From positions 2,702,799-2,766,798 of the forward strand of contig NZ_CP128399.1 of assembly GCF_030389965.1 (NCBI RefSeq): a stretch of 64,000 bases of DNA. The letters run 5' to 3'. The position numbers and the translations under genes are program-made. This document shows, in pieces, positions 5,618-49,273 of the stretch. Each line of letters begins with the position of its first letter. The stretch's first letter is position 1. Origin of the DNA: Candidatus Chlorohelix allophototropha (GTDB taxonomy: Bacteria > Chloroflexota > Chloroflexia > Chloroheliales > Chloroheliaceae). The notes beneath the pieces are model-generated. The model was given only the letters and a program-made list of their open reading frames with translations, was not told the DNA's origin and did no database searches.

Positions 5618-6391
5618 TTGCAAATAGTGCTTAGCTTTCTGGTAGCAGTTCAATTCCTCACGACTCTGCCTGTACCCCTACGACGACAGGCAAGCTCAGA
5701 AGATGTAGGCAGGGCAGTTCGTTATTTCCCAATTGTAGGGTTGTGGCTAGGAGTAATGTTAGCCAGTTTGAACTGGCTGCTTAACTTTTTTATGCCTGCA
5801 AATATCGTGGCGACCTTACTTGTAGCTTCGCTGCTTGCCTTTACCGGTGCGCTTCATTTTGACGGTTTTCTAGATTCATGCGATGGTATGTTCGGTTACC
5901 GCACCCCGGAGCGGCGGCTTGAAATTATGCGAGACAGTCATGTTGGAAGCTTCGCGGTTGCAGGTGGCTGGGTTTTATTAACCCTTAAATATGTCGCGCT
6001 TCTCAACATTCCCCCCGACCTGATGACCCCGGCACTATTACTTGCTCCGGTATTAGGGCGGTGGGCGCTAGTCACAGCGGTGGTTATATTTCCATATGGA
6101 CGGGATAGCGGATTGGGTATTCTGTTCAAGCAGCACACCGGAAAACTAGAAATGGCACTGGCTGGACTAGGAGTGTTGGTATTTTCGCTATTAACATTGC
6201 GGCTATTTGGAGTGGTGCTAGTATTAACTAACTTCGTTTTTGCTTACCTTTTTGGTAAGTATGTAATGAGCAAACTGCCTGCCGGTTTAACGGGCGATAG
6301 TTATGGGGCTATAACCGAATCCAGCGAGACGCTCGCCTGGCTTATTATCGGGGCGGCGGCGGGTGTGATAAAATCCATGTGGTTTCTATAA
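5618..6391 (+). CDS. cobS: Adenosylcobinamide-GDP ribazoletransferase (cobalamin synthase)
   Basis: CobS joins adenosylcobinamide-GDP to alpha-ribazole (phosphate) in the last steps of cobalamin assembly at the membrane. The 257 residues include the family metal-binding motif DGFLDSCDG at ~82-90 and the following RRLEIMRDSHVGSFA segment. Several hydrophobic helices are spread over the length, as expected for this integral membrane enzyme. Start is TTG (encoding MQIVLSF), which gives the expected N-terminus. It leads the cluster cobS-cobC-cobU. No cobalamin riboswitch fits in the 53 bp before it. Confidence 0.93.
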   Translation: MQIVLSFLVAVQFLTTLPVPLRRQASSEDVGRAVRYFPIVGLWLGVMLASLNWLLNFFMPANIVATLLVASLLAFTGALHFDGFLDSCDGMFGYRTPERRLEIMRDSHVGSFAVAGGWVLLTLKYVALLNIPPDLMTPALLLAPVLGRWALVTAVVIFPYGRDSGLGILFKQHTGKLEMALAGLGVLVFSLLTLRLFGVVLVLTNFVFAYLFGKYVMSKLPAGLTGDSYGAITESSETLAWLIIGAAAGVIKSMWFL

Positions 6392-6436
6392 CCAAATACT
6401 TCTCAAAACCTTTTATCCTTTACAGGTGATAAGAAA

Positions 6437-7078
6437 ATGCCGAAGCTGATTCTGGTAAGGCACGGTCAAACCGATTATAACGCGCAACGTCGTTATCAAG
6501 GACACACCGACATCCCACTTAATGAAATGGGTTTACGTCAAGCCAGAGCTTTACAAAAACGCCTCTCTCATTTAAAACTCACTGCTGCCTTTTGTAGCGA
6601 TTTGAGCAGAGCGCGTACCACTGCCCAAATTGGGCTGGAAGGGCATTCTCCCAAACTGGAAGCGGAAATATTGCCCGGTCTGCGTGAAGCTTCCGGTGGC
6701 AGAGCAGAGGGGTTAAATTATAATCAAATGCTGGAGCAATTCCCCGAAGAAACTAAGCTCTGGCAAAGTGATCGGTACAATTATAGCCCGCCCGGTGGTG
6801 AAAACCTGAAGACTGTGCTTGAGCGGGTTAGCCAAGCAATTGATTATATTACCAATAAACATCCGGGCGAAGATGAAGTGGTTTTGGTAGTGGCACACGG
6901 GGGAGTAATCGGCACACTTCTTTGCCATTATATGGGGATGGATTTAAACCGTATCTGGCAATGGCGGGTAGATAGTTGTTCGTTGAGCATCGTCCACCTT
7001 TACGATAATGCTTCAATCCTGTCGCTGTTTAACGATACATCCCATATTGACTCTATGGATTTAAGTGAAGGTAAATAG
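6437..7078 (+). CDS. cobC: Histidine phosphatase, probable alpha-ribazole-5'-phosphate phosphatase
   Basis: The protein has 213 residues of the phosphoglycerate-mutase-like superfamily. The catalytic RHG motif is at residues 8-10 (LILVRHGQTDYN), the second catalytic His is in VVAHGG near residue 154, and the substrate region QGHTDIPLNEMG is typical of CobC/PhoE-like phosphatases. Sequence alone cannot separate alpha-ribazole phosphatase from other small phosphatases. Placement between cobS and cobU argues for removal of phosphate from alpha-ribazole-5'-phosphate or adenosylcobalamin-5'-phosphate. Confidence 0.8.
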   Translation: MPKLILVRHGQTDYNAQRRYQGHTDIPLNEMGLRQARALQKRLSHLKLTAAFCSDLSRARTTAQIGLEGHSPKLEAEILPGLREASGGRAEGLNYNQMLEQFPEETKLWQSDRYNYSPPGGENLKTVLERVSQAIDYITNKHPGEDEVVLVVAHGGVIGTLLCHYMGMDLNRIWQWRVDSCSLSIVHLYDNASILSLFNDTSHIDSMDLSEGK

Positions 7079-7120
7079 GAATTTCTTGTTTTCTGGAAAG
7101 GTTTTTGAATAGTAGCGATA

Positions 7121-7810
7121 ATGTCAAAACCATCGAAAGAGCGCCTAATAAGCCTTGTTTTGGGTGGCGCACGCAGCGGCAAAAGTACCTTTGCCGAGAA
7201 ACTGGCAAGTTCCCGTGCGAGCAACCTCGCGGTGTTATACGTAGCAACGCTTGAACCTTATGATGCCGAAATGCAAGAGCGCGTAGAGCGACATCGTGCC
7301 AGTCGTCCCGATACATGGCGCACATTAGAAGCCCCTCTGAATTTGGCTGAAACAGTTCGTCAAGGATACAAGGGTGAGAAATTGGTGCTGCTCGATTGTC
7401 TCACGCTTTGGACTACCAACCGCCTGATGAGCATAACACCACTGGATAAGGATGCTGCGGGATATGTCTCCCAAATACCGCCTGAAGACGACCTTGCGCT
7501 CGAATCTACTACGCCTACTACTCCTGTTGAGGTTACTTCCCCAGATTATTTTGCCGAGGAACGCGCAATGGCTCAGGAACTCGAATCACTAGTGGCTTGG
7601 TTACGTGAGCAGAATTGCGGACTAGTAATGGTTTCTAACGAAGTGGGAATGGGTTTAGTACCGCCTTACCCACTGGGACGCGCCTATCGAGATGCGTTGG
7701 GACGCTTAAATCAGGTTGCTGCTAACCTCGCAGATGAAGCTTTTTTTTGTATTGCCGGTATTCCCATTGATTTGAAAAAATTGCAATATAATTTTGACGA
7801 GGATATCTAA
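7121..7810 (+). CDS. cobU: Adenosylcobinamide kinase / cobinamide-phosphate guanylyltransferase
   Basis: CobU phosphorylates adenosylcobinamide and transfers GMP to it, making the CobS substrate. The P-loop is GGARSGKS at residues 15-22. The guanylyl-accepting region has ERHRASRPDTW, and the C-terminal SNEVGMGLVPPYPLGRAYRD segment followed by LGRLNQ is strongly diagnostic. The 229-residue protein is longer than usual because of a Ser/Thr/Pro-rich insertion at ~105-145, just before the conserved EERAMAQELE helix. It follows cobC by 42 bp. Confidence 0.93.
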   Translation: MSKPSKERLISLVLGGARSGKSTFAEKLASSRASNLAVLYVATLEPYDAEMQERVERHRASRPDTWRTLEAPLNLAETVRQGYKGEKLVLLDCLTLWTTNRLMSITPLDKDAAGYVSQIPPEDDLALESTTPTTPVEVTSPDYFAEERAMAQELESLVAWLREQNCGLVMVSNEVGMGLVPPYPLGRAYRDALGRLNQVAANLADEAFFCIAGIPIDLKKLQYNFDEDI

Positions 7811-8911: not shown

Positions 8912-9922
8912 CTAATCTTTTGACAGAACTTTTTCTACTAATGCAACGCTCTGTCGCCCTTCGTCCCCAAAATAAACCGCATTTTTGAAAAGCGCATGCA
9001 GATTGGGGTCTTCGGTGAAAGCACGACCAGCATAAGCAAAAATAATACCGGGCAGCCAATATTGCTTTACTTTTTCTATCACTGGTGATATTTCTTGATG
9101 GAGCGCAATAGCGGTTTCAGAACGACTTGCTGAAAAGACCACCATAGCGGGCTTCAAACGGCGTAAATCTTTTTCGAGATCAAGCGCCGGCACATTTTGC
9201 CCCAGATAAAGCACCCGCCAGCCATTTCTACGAAGAAAGAAGGTTGTCATTACTACCCCTACTTCATGAAATTCGTGAGGAGCGCAACCTGTTAGGATTA
9301 GCGGTCCTGTTTCCAGAACCGGCAGCGAATTGATCATCGCATTCAGACGAGTGCGGCAGATGTTGCTGGCAAAATGTTCGGTGGCAACTGTTACTTCGTT
9401 GCGCATCCAGCGATCACCGATTTCGTAAAGTACCGGTTGAATCAAATCCACACAAACTTCTTCCGGTGGATAAAATCCGGCTGCTTCAGAAATAAGGTTA
9501 TCGGCGGTCTGTTCATCAAATTGTAGGAAAGCATTCATCAACTCATTGCCTAGTACGCTCATAGAACGCACCTCATTTAAACGAGTATTCTTTGGATGGC
9601 TTCCTCTGCCGTTGGTTTTCGTAGAATTGGAACGAGCTTGGCGGTTTTCGTACTGCATCACCTCTAGAACAGTTTCTTCCGGCTGTGCCTGCAAAAGAGT
9701 GCTGGCTTGACTAATTGACATTCCTTCTTCAAGGCGATTCCTCAACCACATAACACGATAAATATCTCGCTTGGTATAGCGCCTATGCCCACTCTCAGTT
9801 CGCTGTGGAGTGAGAATTTTGTAGCGCTTCTCCCAAGCGCGTAGAGTAGGTTCGGTAATACCTGCCATATGCGCTACCGCTTTAATGCTATAAATAGGGA
9901 GATCGAGGGTGTTTTCTAACAT
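8912..9922 (-). CDS. MerR-family regulator with cobalamin-binding (CarH/LitR-like) domain
   Basis: The protein has 336 residues. A MerR DNA-binding head occupies ~8-78 (IYSIKAVAHMAGITEPTLRAWEKRY, then GHRRYTKRDI). A helical bundle at ~118-200 carries Trp172 with nine residues before Glu182-His183, the W-x9-EH signature of CarH photoreceptors. A Rossmann-like B12 domain follows, with E217-x-H219-x-x-G222 supplying the lower axial His ligand. In Thermus and Myxococcus such proteins bind adenosylcobalamin, repress carotenoid genes in the dark and fall apart in light; the same mechanism is inferred here. A consensus promoter lies ~120 bp upstream. Cobalamin assembly genes are 1 kb away. Confidence 0.9.
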   Translation of the reverse strand: MLENTLDLPIYSIKAVAHMAGITEPTLRAWEKRYKILTPQRTESGHRRYTKRDIYRVMWLRNRLEEGMSISQASTLLQAQPEETVLEVMQYENRQARSNSTKTNGRGSHPKNTRLNEVRSMSVLGNELMNAFLQFDEQTADNLISEAAGFYPPEEVCVDLIQPVLYEIGDRWMRNEVTVATEHFASNICRTRLNAMINSLPVLETGPLILTGCAPHEFHEVGVVMTTFFLRRNGWRVLYLGQNVPALDLEKDLRRLKPAMVVFSASRSETAIALHQEISPVIEKVKQYWLPGIIFAYAGRAFTEDPNLHALFKNAVYFGDEGRQSVALVEKVLSKD

Positions 9923-40842: not shown

Positions 40843-41685
40843 TCAGAGCTTGAGCCACAAATCATATACCTTGCGATGCGGTAAGCCCAGTTCTTGCGAA
40901 ATATGCTCAACCGCTGCTCTTGCCCGAAGTCCGGTTGTTTTTAACGACCGTAACTTTTCCAGAATCTCTTCCTCACTTAGAGCTTGTACAGGGGTAGGCA
41001 TGATTTCCGGCTCGGCGAAAACCAGCGTAAATTCTCCGCGCGGGGCTATTTCTTGAAAATGCGCAATAGTAGAGGAGAGCTTTTCACGGCGCACTTCCTG
41101 ATGCAGTTTGGTCAATTCACGACAAGCTGCCACCGAACATTCTCCCCAAACTTCAAACGCAGTTTCCAAAAGAGCAAGCAAGCGATGCGGCGCTTCAAAA
41201 CAAATCAGGGGGCGTTGCTGTAATTCCGGTTTGAAATGTGCCAGCCAATCACGCAACTCTCTTTTCTGACGTGGTGGAAACCCGGCATAGGTAAAATCGC
41301 GGGGTGAAAACCCACTCAGAACCAGCGCCACCAACGGGGCAGCCGCACCGGGCGCAGCATCAACAGGTATATTTCGTTCCAAACAGGCGCACACCAATTC
41401 CCAACCGGGGTCACTCAGACAGGGAGTACCAGCGTCCGAAACCAATGCTACGTCTTTACCCTCGTTTAGCTTTTCGAGAACGCTATCCAGCCGAGTCAGT
41501 TTATTATGTTCATGATAAGCAATAGTGGGAGTAGGAATCTGGAAATGGTTGAGCAAGTGGCGAGTATGGCGGGTATCTTCCGCCGCAATCAAAGTCACTT
41601 CACGCAGGAGACGTAAGGCACGTAGGGTAATATCTTCAAGATTCCCAATCGGAGTGCTGACAACGTAAAGTGTACCGAGAGGCAT
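40843..41685 (-). CDS. rsmI: 16S rRNA 2'-O-ribose C1402 methyltransferase
   Basis: RsmI methylates the ribose of C1402 in the ribosomal decoding centre. The 280 residues start with GTLYVVSTPIGNLEDITLRAL and contain AEDTRHTRHLL, VSDAGTPCLSDPG, PGAAAPLVALVLSGF and FEAPHRLLALL, all family hallmarks. Its ATG shares one base with the stop codon of the upstream kinase-B12 gene (TAATG), so translation is probably coupled. That pairing with a sensor is unusual. Confidence 0.95.
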   Translation of the reverse strand: MPLGTLYVVSTPIGNLEDITLRALRLLREVTLIAAEDTRHTRHLLNHFQIPTPTIAYHEHNKLTRLDSVLEKLNEGKDVALVSDAGTPCLSDPGWELVCACLERNIPVDAAPGAAAPLVALVLSGFSPRDFTYAGFPPRQKRELRDWLAHFKPELQQRPLICFEAPHRLLALLETAFEVWGECSVAACRELTKLHQEVRREKLSSTIAHFQEIAPRGEFTLVFAEPEIMPTPVQALSEEEILEKLRSLKTTGLRARAAVEHISQELGLPHRKVYDLWLKL

Positions 41686-43517
41686 TAGGAATTTTTCTCT
41701 GAAAGTTTTTTCTGCGCTTCAATACGCCCATTTATGAACCGTGTCGCTATTCTGACAGTTTCATCAGGGTTTGTGCCCTGAAAGTCCACGCCGAGTTGCG
41801 CCGCTAAATCAGGCAGATCGGTGAACAAACGACCACCCACCCCGATTAGCATGTCAGGGTAAGCCTCTCGCACTTCCTGTACCACGCGCTTTATTTCGAC
41901 AAGATGCTGTCGAAGCGAAATACTAAGTAATAGCAAATCAGGTTTGCTTTGCTCAATAGTAGTGATAAAAGCAGACACAGGCACATTTGCGCCTAGATTG
42001 GTAGTTTGCCACCCAGCCCGCGTAAAAGCGTTTGCCACCATTGTCAGCCCCACCATATGCTCTTCTCCAGACACCGTTCCGACCATAACCCTTAGTCCGC
42101 TAGAGGGAACGGCGGTGGTTTTAGCGCGTGCCAGAAAGTCGCGGATAACACCAACCGCGAGATGCTCATCACCAATTCCAATTTTTCCCTGATGCCATAG
42201 TTCACCCACTTCGTAGAGGGTATCACGTAGCACATCATCCAATTGGTTTGAGGGTAGGGTACGTTGCAGGTAATCCAGATAAAGCTCGGCTTCAGTTGTA
42301 TCTTTACCCTGAACTAGCAAGGACTTGAGCAATATATCCTTGAAAATTTTGATTTCGCGGTTGGGGAAGATGTGAACCGGGACAGTGAAGAAGAAGGTAG
42401 TACCTAACCCTAGTTTGCTCTCCGCCCAAATGCGACCGCCCATCAATTCGACCAGATTGCGGGTAATGGCAAGACCTAGCCCAATGCCTTTTACCTCACG
42501 GGTTGAACCATTACGAACCCGATAGTATTTCTCAAAAATATGGGTCTGATCACCTTCAGGAATACCTACGCCCTGATCACTGATACTGATTTGAATAAGT
42601 TCAGAATTGGTAGGGCTGACATTAACCCGAATGGTAATGTTGCCGCCTTTAGAGGAATATTTGATGGCGTTGCCAATAATGTTGTTCAATATTTGAATTA
42701 ACTTATCGCGGTCGGTGCGGGCAGCCGGAAGATTCGATTCAATTTCAATTTTGAAGTTGTGGCGGCTGCTACCGACTCGCAAAATCTCAACTACCTGACG
42801 GATGACCATTTCAAGATCAACCCGTTCGAGTCGCAAATCAATACGCCCACTTTCGATATGAGCAAGACTAAGCATATCCTCAATCAAACCGGATAGACGT
42901 ACACTTTCGCGATTTATCATTTCCAGCCACATGCGTTGGCGTTCGGGAGGAGCATCTTGAGTGAGTAACAATTCGCTGAAACCTTGAATTGCGCTGAGAG
43001 GTGTGCGCAACTCGTGCGATACCACTGCCATAAACTCGTTTTTAATCTGATCTGCCGGGGGTTCGTAGCGACCGTCTTGCAGCATCAAACCGCGCCCAAG
43101 CCAAGCCCCATCTTTATCGCGAACTGAAAACAGAACGAACCGAGCATGGGCATCTGCCATCGGTTCAGCCCCAACCGGAGTCGGCACCACTAATGAGACA
43201 TCAAGAATAACTGGTTGTTCCGGGCGGGTGTTGAGTAACAGGTTATAAAGCTGTTTTGGTTCGCGCGCACGCAATAATATTTTTTCAAGCGCATTCTGGA
43301 AAGGCTGCCCGATTAATTGGCTGGCAGGATAACCCAGCATATCGCATGCCTTCAGATTGGTGAAAAGCACTTCATCAACCCGGTCTGCTACTAATAAGCC
43401 ATCCGGAAACGACAACGCCATCGCCAATACTGCTTCAACACGTAGAGACTGCTCCGTCTTTTTATCAGACTCGTGCATGCCAATTTGCTCTCTTTCGTGA
43501 AGTTTTTTATCTATCAT
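41685..43517 (-). CDS. Soluble PAS histidine kinase fused to CarH-like B12-binding domain
   Basis: The 610-residue protein has no membrane span. A PAS-like domain covers ~25-150 (SFPDGLLVADRVDEVLFTNL). HisKA has EFMAVVSHELRTP with His168, and the ATPase domain has NNIIGNAIKYS, DQGVGIP and GIGLGLA. From ~390 a helical bundle and Rossmann-like domain follow with Trp441, nine residues, Glu451-His452 (the W-x9-EH signature of CarH) and E485-x-H487-x-x-G490 for the lower axial ligand of cobalamin. So the kinase output is attached to what looks like an adenosylcobalamin light-sensor module. Light sensing is inferred; B12 sensing is an alternative. No response regulator is adjacent. Confidence 0.88.
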   Translation of the reverse strand: MIDKKLHEREQIGMHESDKKTEQSLRVEAVLAMALSFPDGLLVADRVDEVLFTNLKACDMLGYPASQLIGQPFQNALEKILLRAREPKQLYNLLLNTRPEQPVILDVSLVVPTPVGAEPMADAHARFVLFSVRDKDGAWLGRGLMLQDGRYEPPADQIKNEFMAVVSHELRTPLSAIQGFSELLLTQDAPPERQRMWLEMINRESVRLSGLIEDMLSLAHIESGRIDLRLERVDLEMVIRQVVEILRVGSSRHNFKIEIESNLPAARTDRDKLIQILNNIIGNAIKYSSKGGNITIRVNVSPTNSELIQISISDQGVGIPEGDQTHIFEKYYRVRNGSTREVKGIGLGLAITRNLVELMGGRIWAESKLGLGTTFFFTVPVHIFPNREIKIFKDILLKSLLVQGKDTTEAELYLDYLQRTLPSNQLDDVLRDTLYEVGELWHQGKIGIGDEHLAVGVIRDFLARAKTTAVPSSGLRVMVGTVSGEEHMVGLTMVANAFTRAGWQTTNLGANVPVSAFITTIEQSKPDLLLLSISLRQHLVEIKRVVQEVREAYPDMLIGVGGRLFTDLPDLAAQLGVDFQGTNPDETVRIATRFINGRIEAQKKLSEKNS

Positions 43518-47800: not shown

Positions 47801-49273
47801 TTGGCACAAGTAGCGATAGCCGGAGCAGGAATGGGTGGTTTGGCAACCGCAATCAGATTGGCAGCAGCCGGGCACAAAGTTCAAATCTTTGAAAAAAACG
47901 AGCAAGTAGGCGGCAAGCTCAACTTGCTAGAAAAAGGCGGCTATCGCTGGGACACGGGTCCCTCACTGATCACCATGCCATTTGTATATGAAGACCTGTT
48001 CAGAGTAGCCGGACGTGATTTCAAAGACTATGTAGAACTTGTCCCGGTAGAACCTATCACGCGCTATTTCTACCCCGATGGAGCAATTTTTGATGCCAGC
48101 GATAGCCTCGCCACCATGACAGCCGCTATCGAAAAACTCAGCCCGCCGGATGTAGCGAACTATTATAAGTATATGGCTTACAGTCGCCGCCTATACGACC
48201 TAACCGCCGAGGTGTTCTTATTCAACGGCTTTAATAACTTGCGCGACCTGCGCCAGATGAGCCTGCCAAATACTTTCAAGATTGACCCCTTCCGCACGGT
48301 GCATCAAGCCAACACCGCTTTTTTCAAGGATAAGCGGTTGGTACAGCTTTTCGATCGCTACGCCACTTACAACGGTTCTTCACCCTATCGCGCGCCAGCC
48401 ACCCTGAACGTAATACCCTTCGTGGAATTGGGGTTGGGTGGTTGGTATGTGCGGGGTGGCTTGTACAAGTTGGCACAGGCATATTTGAAACTAGCGCAGG
48501 AGTTAGGGGTAGAAGTGCGTACCGGGGCAAAGGTAGAGCATATCCTGACCTGTAAAGGCAAAGTGTCAGGGCTGCGCTTGGAAAGAGGCGAGGAAATAGC
48601 AGCAGAAGTGGTTATCTCCAATACGGATGTGAGCTACACTAACCGTCACTTGCTAGGGCAAAAACGCGAAGGCTGGCGCAAATACACCGGGATAGAGCCA
48701 AGTTGCAGCGGTTTTGTGTTATTTCTAGGATTAAAGCGGCAATATAAGCAATTGCGCCATCACAATATTTTGTTCAGCCGCGACTACCAGAATGAGTTCG
48801 CCGATATTTTCGAGCGCAAAGTACCCCCGCAAGACCCTACCATTTACATCTGCTGGACAGGGCACACCGACCCAGCACATGCCCCACCGGGTAGCAGCAA
48901 CCTGTTCGTGCTGGTCAATGCTCCCTATTTATCGGAAAATTTTGAGTGGACTCCAACCGCTTCAAAAACTTATCGCGACTTGCTCATCCGCCGGATGCAA
49001 GAAGGTGGTTTAGAAGGGCTTGAAACAGCGATCGAGGTTGAGCAACTAATAACCCCGCACGACTTAGAACAGCACTATAACGCTACACATGGCGCAATTT
49101 ACGGACTAAGCAGCAACAACCGTTTCAGTGCCTTCCTCCGCCCACCTAACCGCTCTTCAAAGCTAAAAGGGTTGTATTACGCCGGAGGCAGCACCCATCC
49201 CGGCGGCGGGGTGCCGTTGGTAACGTTATCAGCCAAAATTGTGGCAAAATTGGTTGAACAAGACTTGCGCTAA
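47801..49273 (+). CDS. CrtI-type carotenoid desaturase/oxidoreductase
   Basis: The 490-residue flavoprotein starts AIAGAGMGGLATAIRLAAAGHKVQ (FAD-binding GxGxxG, ~6-30) followed by EKNEQVGGKLN and RWDTGPSLITMP, both CrtI-family hallmarks. It ends with GLYYAGGSTHPGGGVPLV, the family C-terminal signature. Members desaturate phytoene (CrtI), later intermediates (CrtD) or oxidise end groups; the YFYPDGAIFDASD stretch leaves the choice open. TTG start has GGAG six bases upstream. It is alone, with no crtB nearby. It acts on membrane-bound carotenoids, consistent with a phototroph. Confidence 0.88.
   Translation: MAQVAIAGAGMGGLATAIRLAAAGHKVQIFEKNEQVGGKLNLLEKGGYRWDTGPSLITMPFVYEDLFRVAGRDFKDYVELVPVEPITRYFYPDGAIFDASDSLATMTAAIEKLSPPDVANYYKYMAYSRRLYDLTAEVFLFNGFNNLRDLRQMSLPNTFKIDPFRTVHQANTAFFKDKRLVQLFDRYATYNGSSPYRAPATLNVIPFVELGLGGWYVRGGLYKLAQAYLKLAQELGVEVRTGAKVEHILTCKGKVSGLRLERGEEIAAEVVISNTDVSYTNRHLLGQKREGWRKYTGIEPSCSGFVLFLGLKRQYKQLRHHNILFSRDYQNEFADIFERKVPPQDPTIYICWTGHTDPAHAPPGSSNLFVLVNAPYLSENFEWTPTASKTYRDLLIRRMQEGGLEGLETAIEVEQLITPHDLEQHYNATHGAIYGLSSNNRFSAFLRPPNRSSKLKGLYYAGGSTHPGGGVPLVTLSAKIVAKLVEQDLR

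Follow-up and report, generated by a model that had tools for sequence, protein, structure and literature searches.

A histidine kinase with a C-terminal CarH-type cobalamin domain: a candidate photosensor of Candidatus Chlorohelix allophototropha

Introduction

What signal reaches a histidine kinase that carries a CarH-type cobalamin domain behind its ATPase domain? The question is raised by a gene of Candidatus Chlorohelix allophototropha, a phototroph of the Chloroflexota that was brought into culture recently and has a type I reaction centre (PMC10972752). The closed L227-S17 genome comprises chromosomes of 2.96 and 2.45 Mb, a 375 kb chromid and plasmids of 241 and 55 kb; the words photoreceptor and two-component are absent from the main text of the genome paper (PMC10972752). 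The gene lies in a 64,000-nucleotide stretch of this genome, herein the window, to which all coordinates refer unless a locus is named.

The reference for the cobalamin domain is CarH of Thermus thermophilus (TtCarH). In dark TtCarH the cobalt of bound adenosylcobalamin (AdoCbl) is ligated by His177; Trp131 stacks against the adenosyl group and Glu141 forms a hydrogen bond with it. In the lit protein the adenosyl group is lost and His132 is on cobalt (PMC10442372). Light alone leads to a Co(II)-His132 state; the bis-His end state is reached only when O2 is present (PMC10442372).

Gene and Domain Organization

An open reading frame of 610 residues with an ATG start occupies exactly the interval that the initial annotation had assigned to the fusion. 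Its features and the adjoining gene are as follows.

41685..43517, minus strand: whole gene, histidine kinase of 610 residues with a C-terminal CarH-type B12 domain (open reading frame and Pfam; domain order common to the orthologue L064:2865-4790 (-))
43227..43412, minus strand: PAS domain, residues 36-97 (Pfam)
42846..43043, minus strand: HisKA domain, residues 159-224, with phospho-acceptor H168 in HELRTP (Pfam, residue check)
42375..42713, minus strand: HATPase_c domain, residues 269-381, with N box at 279, G1 box at 314 and G2 box at 344 (Pfam, residue check)
42129..42329, minus strand: B12-binding_2 helix bundle, residues 397-463, with G438xxW441, H442 (CarH His132) and E451-H452 (Pfam, alignment, model)
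41760..42092, minus strand: B12-binding Rossmann domain, residues 476-586, with G484xxH487 (axial His, CarH His177) and G509xxxP513 (Pfam, alignment, model)
40843..41685, minus strand: rsmI, 16S rRNA 2'-O-methyltransferase, its start overlapping the kinase stop (TAATG)

All five Pfam domains exceed the curated cut-offs; with the whole protein as query, the E-values are 1.2e-20 for HisKA, 2.5e-30 for HATPase_c, 2.3e-7 for B12-binding_2 and 6e-21 for B12-binding. The kinase half scores 73.8 bits (HisKA) and 105.6 bits (HATPase_c), and H168 and the N, G1 and G2 boxes are intact, as in an orthodox sensor histidine kinase. The proposal that a complete PAS-HisKA-ATPase kinase stands ahead of the cobalamin domain is borne out. 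No MerR-type DNA-binding head was matched by Pfam in the 610 residues, its place being taken by PAS-HisKA-HATPase. Nor is there room for a bilin-binding globin-like domain: the HATPase ends at 381, the first B12 helix begins at 386 and the B12 match ends at 586 of 610.

Signature Residues of the Cobalamin Domain

Alignment pairs TtCarH W131, H132, E141, H142, E175 and H177 with W441, H442, E451, H452, E485 and H487 of the kinase. The initial annotation had read Trp441, Glu451-His452 and His487 as the W-x9-EH and ExHxxG patterns, and its numbering is exact (W441-x9-E451-H452; E485-E-H487-x-x-G490). A light-response signature of GxxW, EH, GxxH and GxxxP, taken from a published workflow with bench-tested exemplar proteins, occurs in 1,561 of 128,000 CBD sequences after clustering (PMC11796333); all four elements are found in order in the kinase, within residues 438-513. 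In 200,000 shuffles of the B12 domain, W-x9-EH and ExHxxG were both present anywhere in 20 and the full ordered signature (G..W-x9-EH...G..H...G...P) in none, which argues that the motifs do not co-occur by chance. The full signature is carried by 66 of the 133 B12 domains gathered, a fraction that is no base rate since these were collected by similarity to the kinase's domain, and by none of the 16 domains without W-x9-EH (methionine synthase and corrinoid proteins included), as partly follows from the definition.

Against the methionine-synthase/corrinoid group the residues are distinct: W-x9-EH is absent from all 13 of its sequences, nearly all of which have DxHxxG, whereas the kinase combines ExHxxG with W-x9-EH. 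The histidine at position 442 is kept in both orthologues and in 20 of 27 members of the CarH half of the B12-domain tree. The TtCarH dimer contact Arg176-Asp201 is not kept (Glu486 and Asn511 in the kinase); it also differs in the MerR-type CarH of the window (Phe and Asn) and is therefore no strict mark of the family. This second protein (8915-9922, minus strand), encoded beside cobS-cobC-cobU, has W-x9-EH and ExHxxG but a Met at the CarH His132 position. The signature residues of the kinase indicate AdoCbl-type binding, not light as the physiological signal; on this evidence the kinase likely binds B12 in the form of AdoCbl.

Predicted Structure

An AlphaFold2 model of the B12 domain, built on six aligned domains, has a pLDDT of 88.8 and a pTM of 0.84 and consists of a four-helix bundle plus a Rossmann fold. 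The nearest solved folds are the photocobilins (Z 20.2-20.9), then AerR (Z 19.6); CarH and CtMerR reach Z of about 17-18, the CarH chains scoring 16.8-17.8 over about 190-200 residues, and MetH and corrinoid proteins about 15-19. The fold alone does not discriminate sensors from enzymes; the residues do. In the full-length model (pTM 0.40), which has a low-confidence hinge at 383-386 and leaves the domain arrangement open, the helix bundle begins about five residues past the last ATPase strand.

Distribution and Origin of the Fusion

Among 158 genomes of the class, surveyed with the B12 half alone as query, the fusion was found in one other genome (G445), from a different genus of the same family. 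The orthologue has the same domain order, and identities by domain are 26% for PAS (residues 36-155), 81% for HisKA, 63% for HATPase and 72% and 65% for the two B12 halves, with every B12 signature residue kept. Conservation of 65-72% across two genera, against 26% for PAS, argues that the B12 domain is under selection. The phototrophy marker FmoA is encoded in both the Chlorohelix and G445 genomes, while G442-G444, of the same family, have neither FmoA nor the fusion; its presence thus tracks FmoA in the five family genomes, which may reflect one evolutionary event.

With the full-length query, 400 Chloroflexota genomes gave elsewhere only matches to the kinase half, among the three best candidates scored per genome. 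A contig search for relatives returned kinase-only or B12-only proteins, viral contigs held no relative, and plasmid records held CarH and other cobalamin-dependent proteins with no annotated kinase fusion; among the loci examined in 297 genomes from the phylum to which the Desulfonatronospira locus belongs, there was likewise no kinase fusion. The database survey of such fusions proposed in the initial annotation did, besides the orthologue, yield B12-HisKA-HATPase-REC hybrid kinases in two Planctomycetota genomes (L165:4604-7069 (+) and L166:1024-3417 (-)). The hybrids have an N-terminal domain of about 140 residues without assignment.

Other members of the class carry B12 sensors in the form of CarH, short proteins of about 230 residues, DICT-GAF fusions and DUF4388 fusions. 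Two proteins of about 700 residues (L068:738-2855 (-) and L069:1448-3541 (-)) have a B12 domain in the CarH clade, the former being DICT-GAF-B12 by Pfam. Two more, of 757 and 807 residues (L078:2366-4636 (+) and L065:1179-3599 (+)), both from phototrophic genomes, end in a CarH-like B12 domain with NxHxxG replacing ExHxxG; Pfam finds DUF4388 in the former, and in the Chlorohelix genome the distance to a CobA/BtuR gene is about 5 kb.

In a free tree of 113 B12 domains, none of them from a photocobilin of known structure, the kinase pair falls among 27 CarH-side rows (96/89) on a long branch (1.07). An approximately unbiased (AU) test did not reject forcing the pair into the methionine-synthase/corrinoid group (p 0.196). 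The Planctomycetota hybrids lie on the opposite side of the tree, and a single clade uniting them with the kinase pair was rejected (p-AU 0.009); by these comparisons the kinase-B12 fusion arose independently at least twice.

Genomic Context

The kinase gene and rsmI are probably co-transcribed. There is no functional tie between them, and at the orthologue locus rsmI is not the neighbour; there the upstream dehydrogenase is conserved (78% identical) and the downstream gene differs. Directly after the G445 kinase lies an ECF sigma factor gene (L064:2178-2789 (-)), followed by a gene without Pfam match, an arrangement not seen in Chlorohelix. The sigma-factor output that this gene suggested was dropped, the Chlorohelix homologue being located elsewhere. 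No response regulator gene adjoins the kinase at this locus, and an Rfam search of the window gave no match. A CrtI-family (CrtD-like) carotenoid desaturase is encoded on the opposite strand 4 kb from the kinase (47801-49273, plus strand).

The cobalamin assembly cluster cobS-cobC-cobU lies inside the window (5618-7807), 34 kb from the kinase gene. The genome encodes two CobA/BtuR adenosyltransferases and no PduO-type enzyme; the cluster and the two CobA/BtuR proteins make a supply of AdoCbl plausible.

Proposed Function and Alternatives

We favour, with moderate confidence, an AdoCbl-dependent, light-gated photosensor histidine kinase whose response regulator is unlinked. By analogy with TtCarH, the C-terminal domain would in the dark bind AdoCbl in the base-off form, His487 ligating the cobalt and Trp441, Glu451 and His452 surrounding the adenosyl group. 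Green or visible light would break the Co-C bond, the adenosyl group would leave and His442 would move onto cobalt, upon which the helix bundle would shift relative to the Rossmann half. Since the bundle is so close to the last ATPase strand, its movement should affect the ATP-binding domain, altering the access of that domain to His168 and changing autophosphorylation or phosphatase activity; the phosphate would then pass to a response regulator encoded elsewhere. We infer the coupling of the B12 domain to the kinase, and its direction, without direct precedent. With the sensor behind the ATPase and not before the phospho-acceptor helix, the kinase would have to be controlled by something other than the usual route. 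The missing Arg176-Asp201 contact speaks against simple reuse of the CarH tetramer switch, in place of which the kinase's own dimer may act.

The same residues serve AdoCbl binding in the dark, and in CarH that binding by itself switches the oligomer (PMC10442372). The protein could accordingly report whether cobalamin is present or in which form (AdoCbl versus other corrinoids or none), occupancy setting kinase activity, for instance for B12-dependent metabolism, and a cobalamin assembly cluster does lie in the same window. The distance to that cluster, the link between gene presence and phototrophy across the five family genomes and the retention in both orthologues of His442, the residue of the light-driven ligand switch (though common in the CarH half), tell against this, and we regard it as possible but rather unlikely. 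PAS is the usual input domain of histidine kinases, usually placed before the phospho-acceptor helix, as it is here; PAS might drive the kinase and the B12 domain be a vestigial or structural appendage. As the orthologues differ most in PAS and the B12 halves keep all their signature residues, we find this improbable. Poorest of all are the prospects of methyl-corrinoid binding of the methionine-synthase or corrinoid-methyltransferase kind, with the kinase sensing redox or methyl-transfer status: the shared overall fold and the unrejected corrinoid grouping would allow it, but the W-x9-EH cap, ExHxxG in place of DxHxxG and the CarH-side position in the free tree make it very improbable.

A bolder form of the photosensor reading, which we consider doubtful, is a two-component light receptor of CarH type restricted to Chloroflexota with type I reaction centres, gated from behind the ATPase and, in an anaerobe, possibly detecting the coincidence of light and oxygen; this last idea derives from the O2 requirement of the TtCarH bis-His state and the retention of the matching His442. 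If the favoured reading is true, B12 photochemistry feeds a phosphorelay, and a diffusible phosphorylated regulator could place many genes under light where a DNA-bound repressor controls one. The protein would then be a photoreceptor candidate for this phototroph. Optogenetics might gain a green-light kinase from it, and it would allow study of how a sensor behind the ATPase can control a histidine kinase.

Comparison with Known Systems

CarH/LitR proteins, MerR-B12 light-dependent repressors such as TtCarH and Chloracidobacterium CtMerR, resemble the kinase in B12 fold, in Trp131, His132, Glu141, His142 and His177, all of which are matched, and in occupying the same half of the B12-domain tree. 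They differ in having the MerR head, no kinase output and, in TtCarH, the Arg176-Asp201 contact. The B12 domains of methionine synthase and corrinoid methyltransferases are set apart by DxHxxG and the lack of the W-x9-EH cap. AerR/PpaA and AppA SCHIC, antirepressors of purple bacteria, share the fold (Z 16-19.6) at 15-19% identity; they act on a transcription factor, and we know of none that acts as a kinase.

The photocobilins SasPcob and AbDPcob are, by sequence and structure, the closest solved folds. Like the kinase, they join a light-type B12 domain to a non-MerR output (the light response of the kinase being predicted from sequence); they possess a bilin-binding domain, whereas in the kinase the HATPase directly precedes the B12 domain and 24 residues follow it. 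The Planctomycetota hybrids also combine a CarH-type signature domain and a histidine kinase in one protein, but with B12 before the kinase, a receiver domain, an extra N-terminal domain and a B12 domain from another branch.

The initial statement that CarH-type receptors are mainly transcription factors holds in a narrower sense than it suggests: photocobilins have been published, as have proteins that join a B12 domain to diguanylate cyclase, GAF or MEDS domains (PMC10979010, PMC11796333), and the kinase hybrids found here add to these. In the open-access literature covered, partners of B12 photoreceptors are HTH, diguanylate cyclase, bilin-binding, GAF and MEDS domains, with no kinase among them, although reviews may contain an earlier mention. 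Other outputs are already on record for B12 photoreceptor modules; the kinase output would be the new element.
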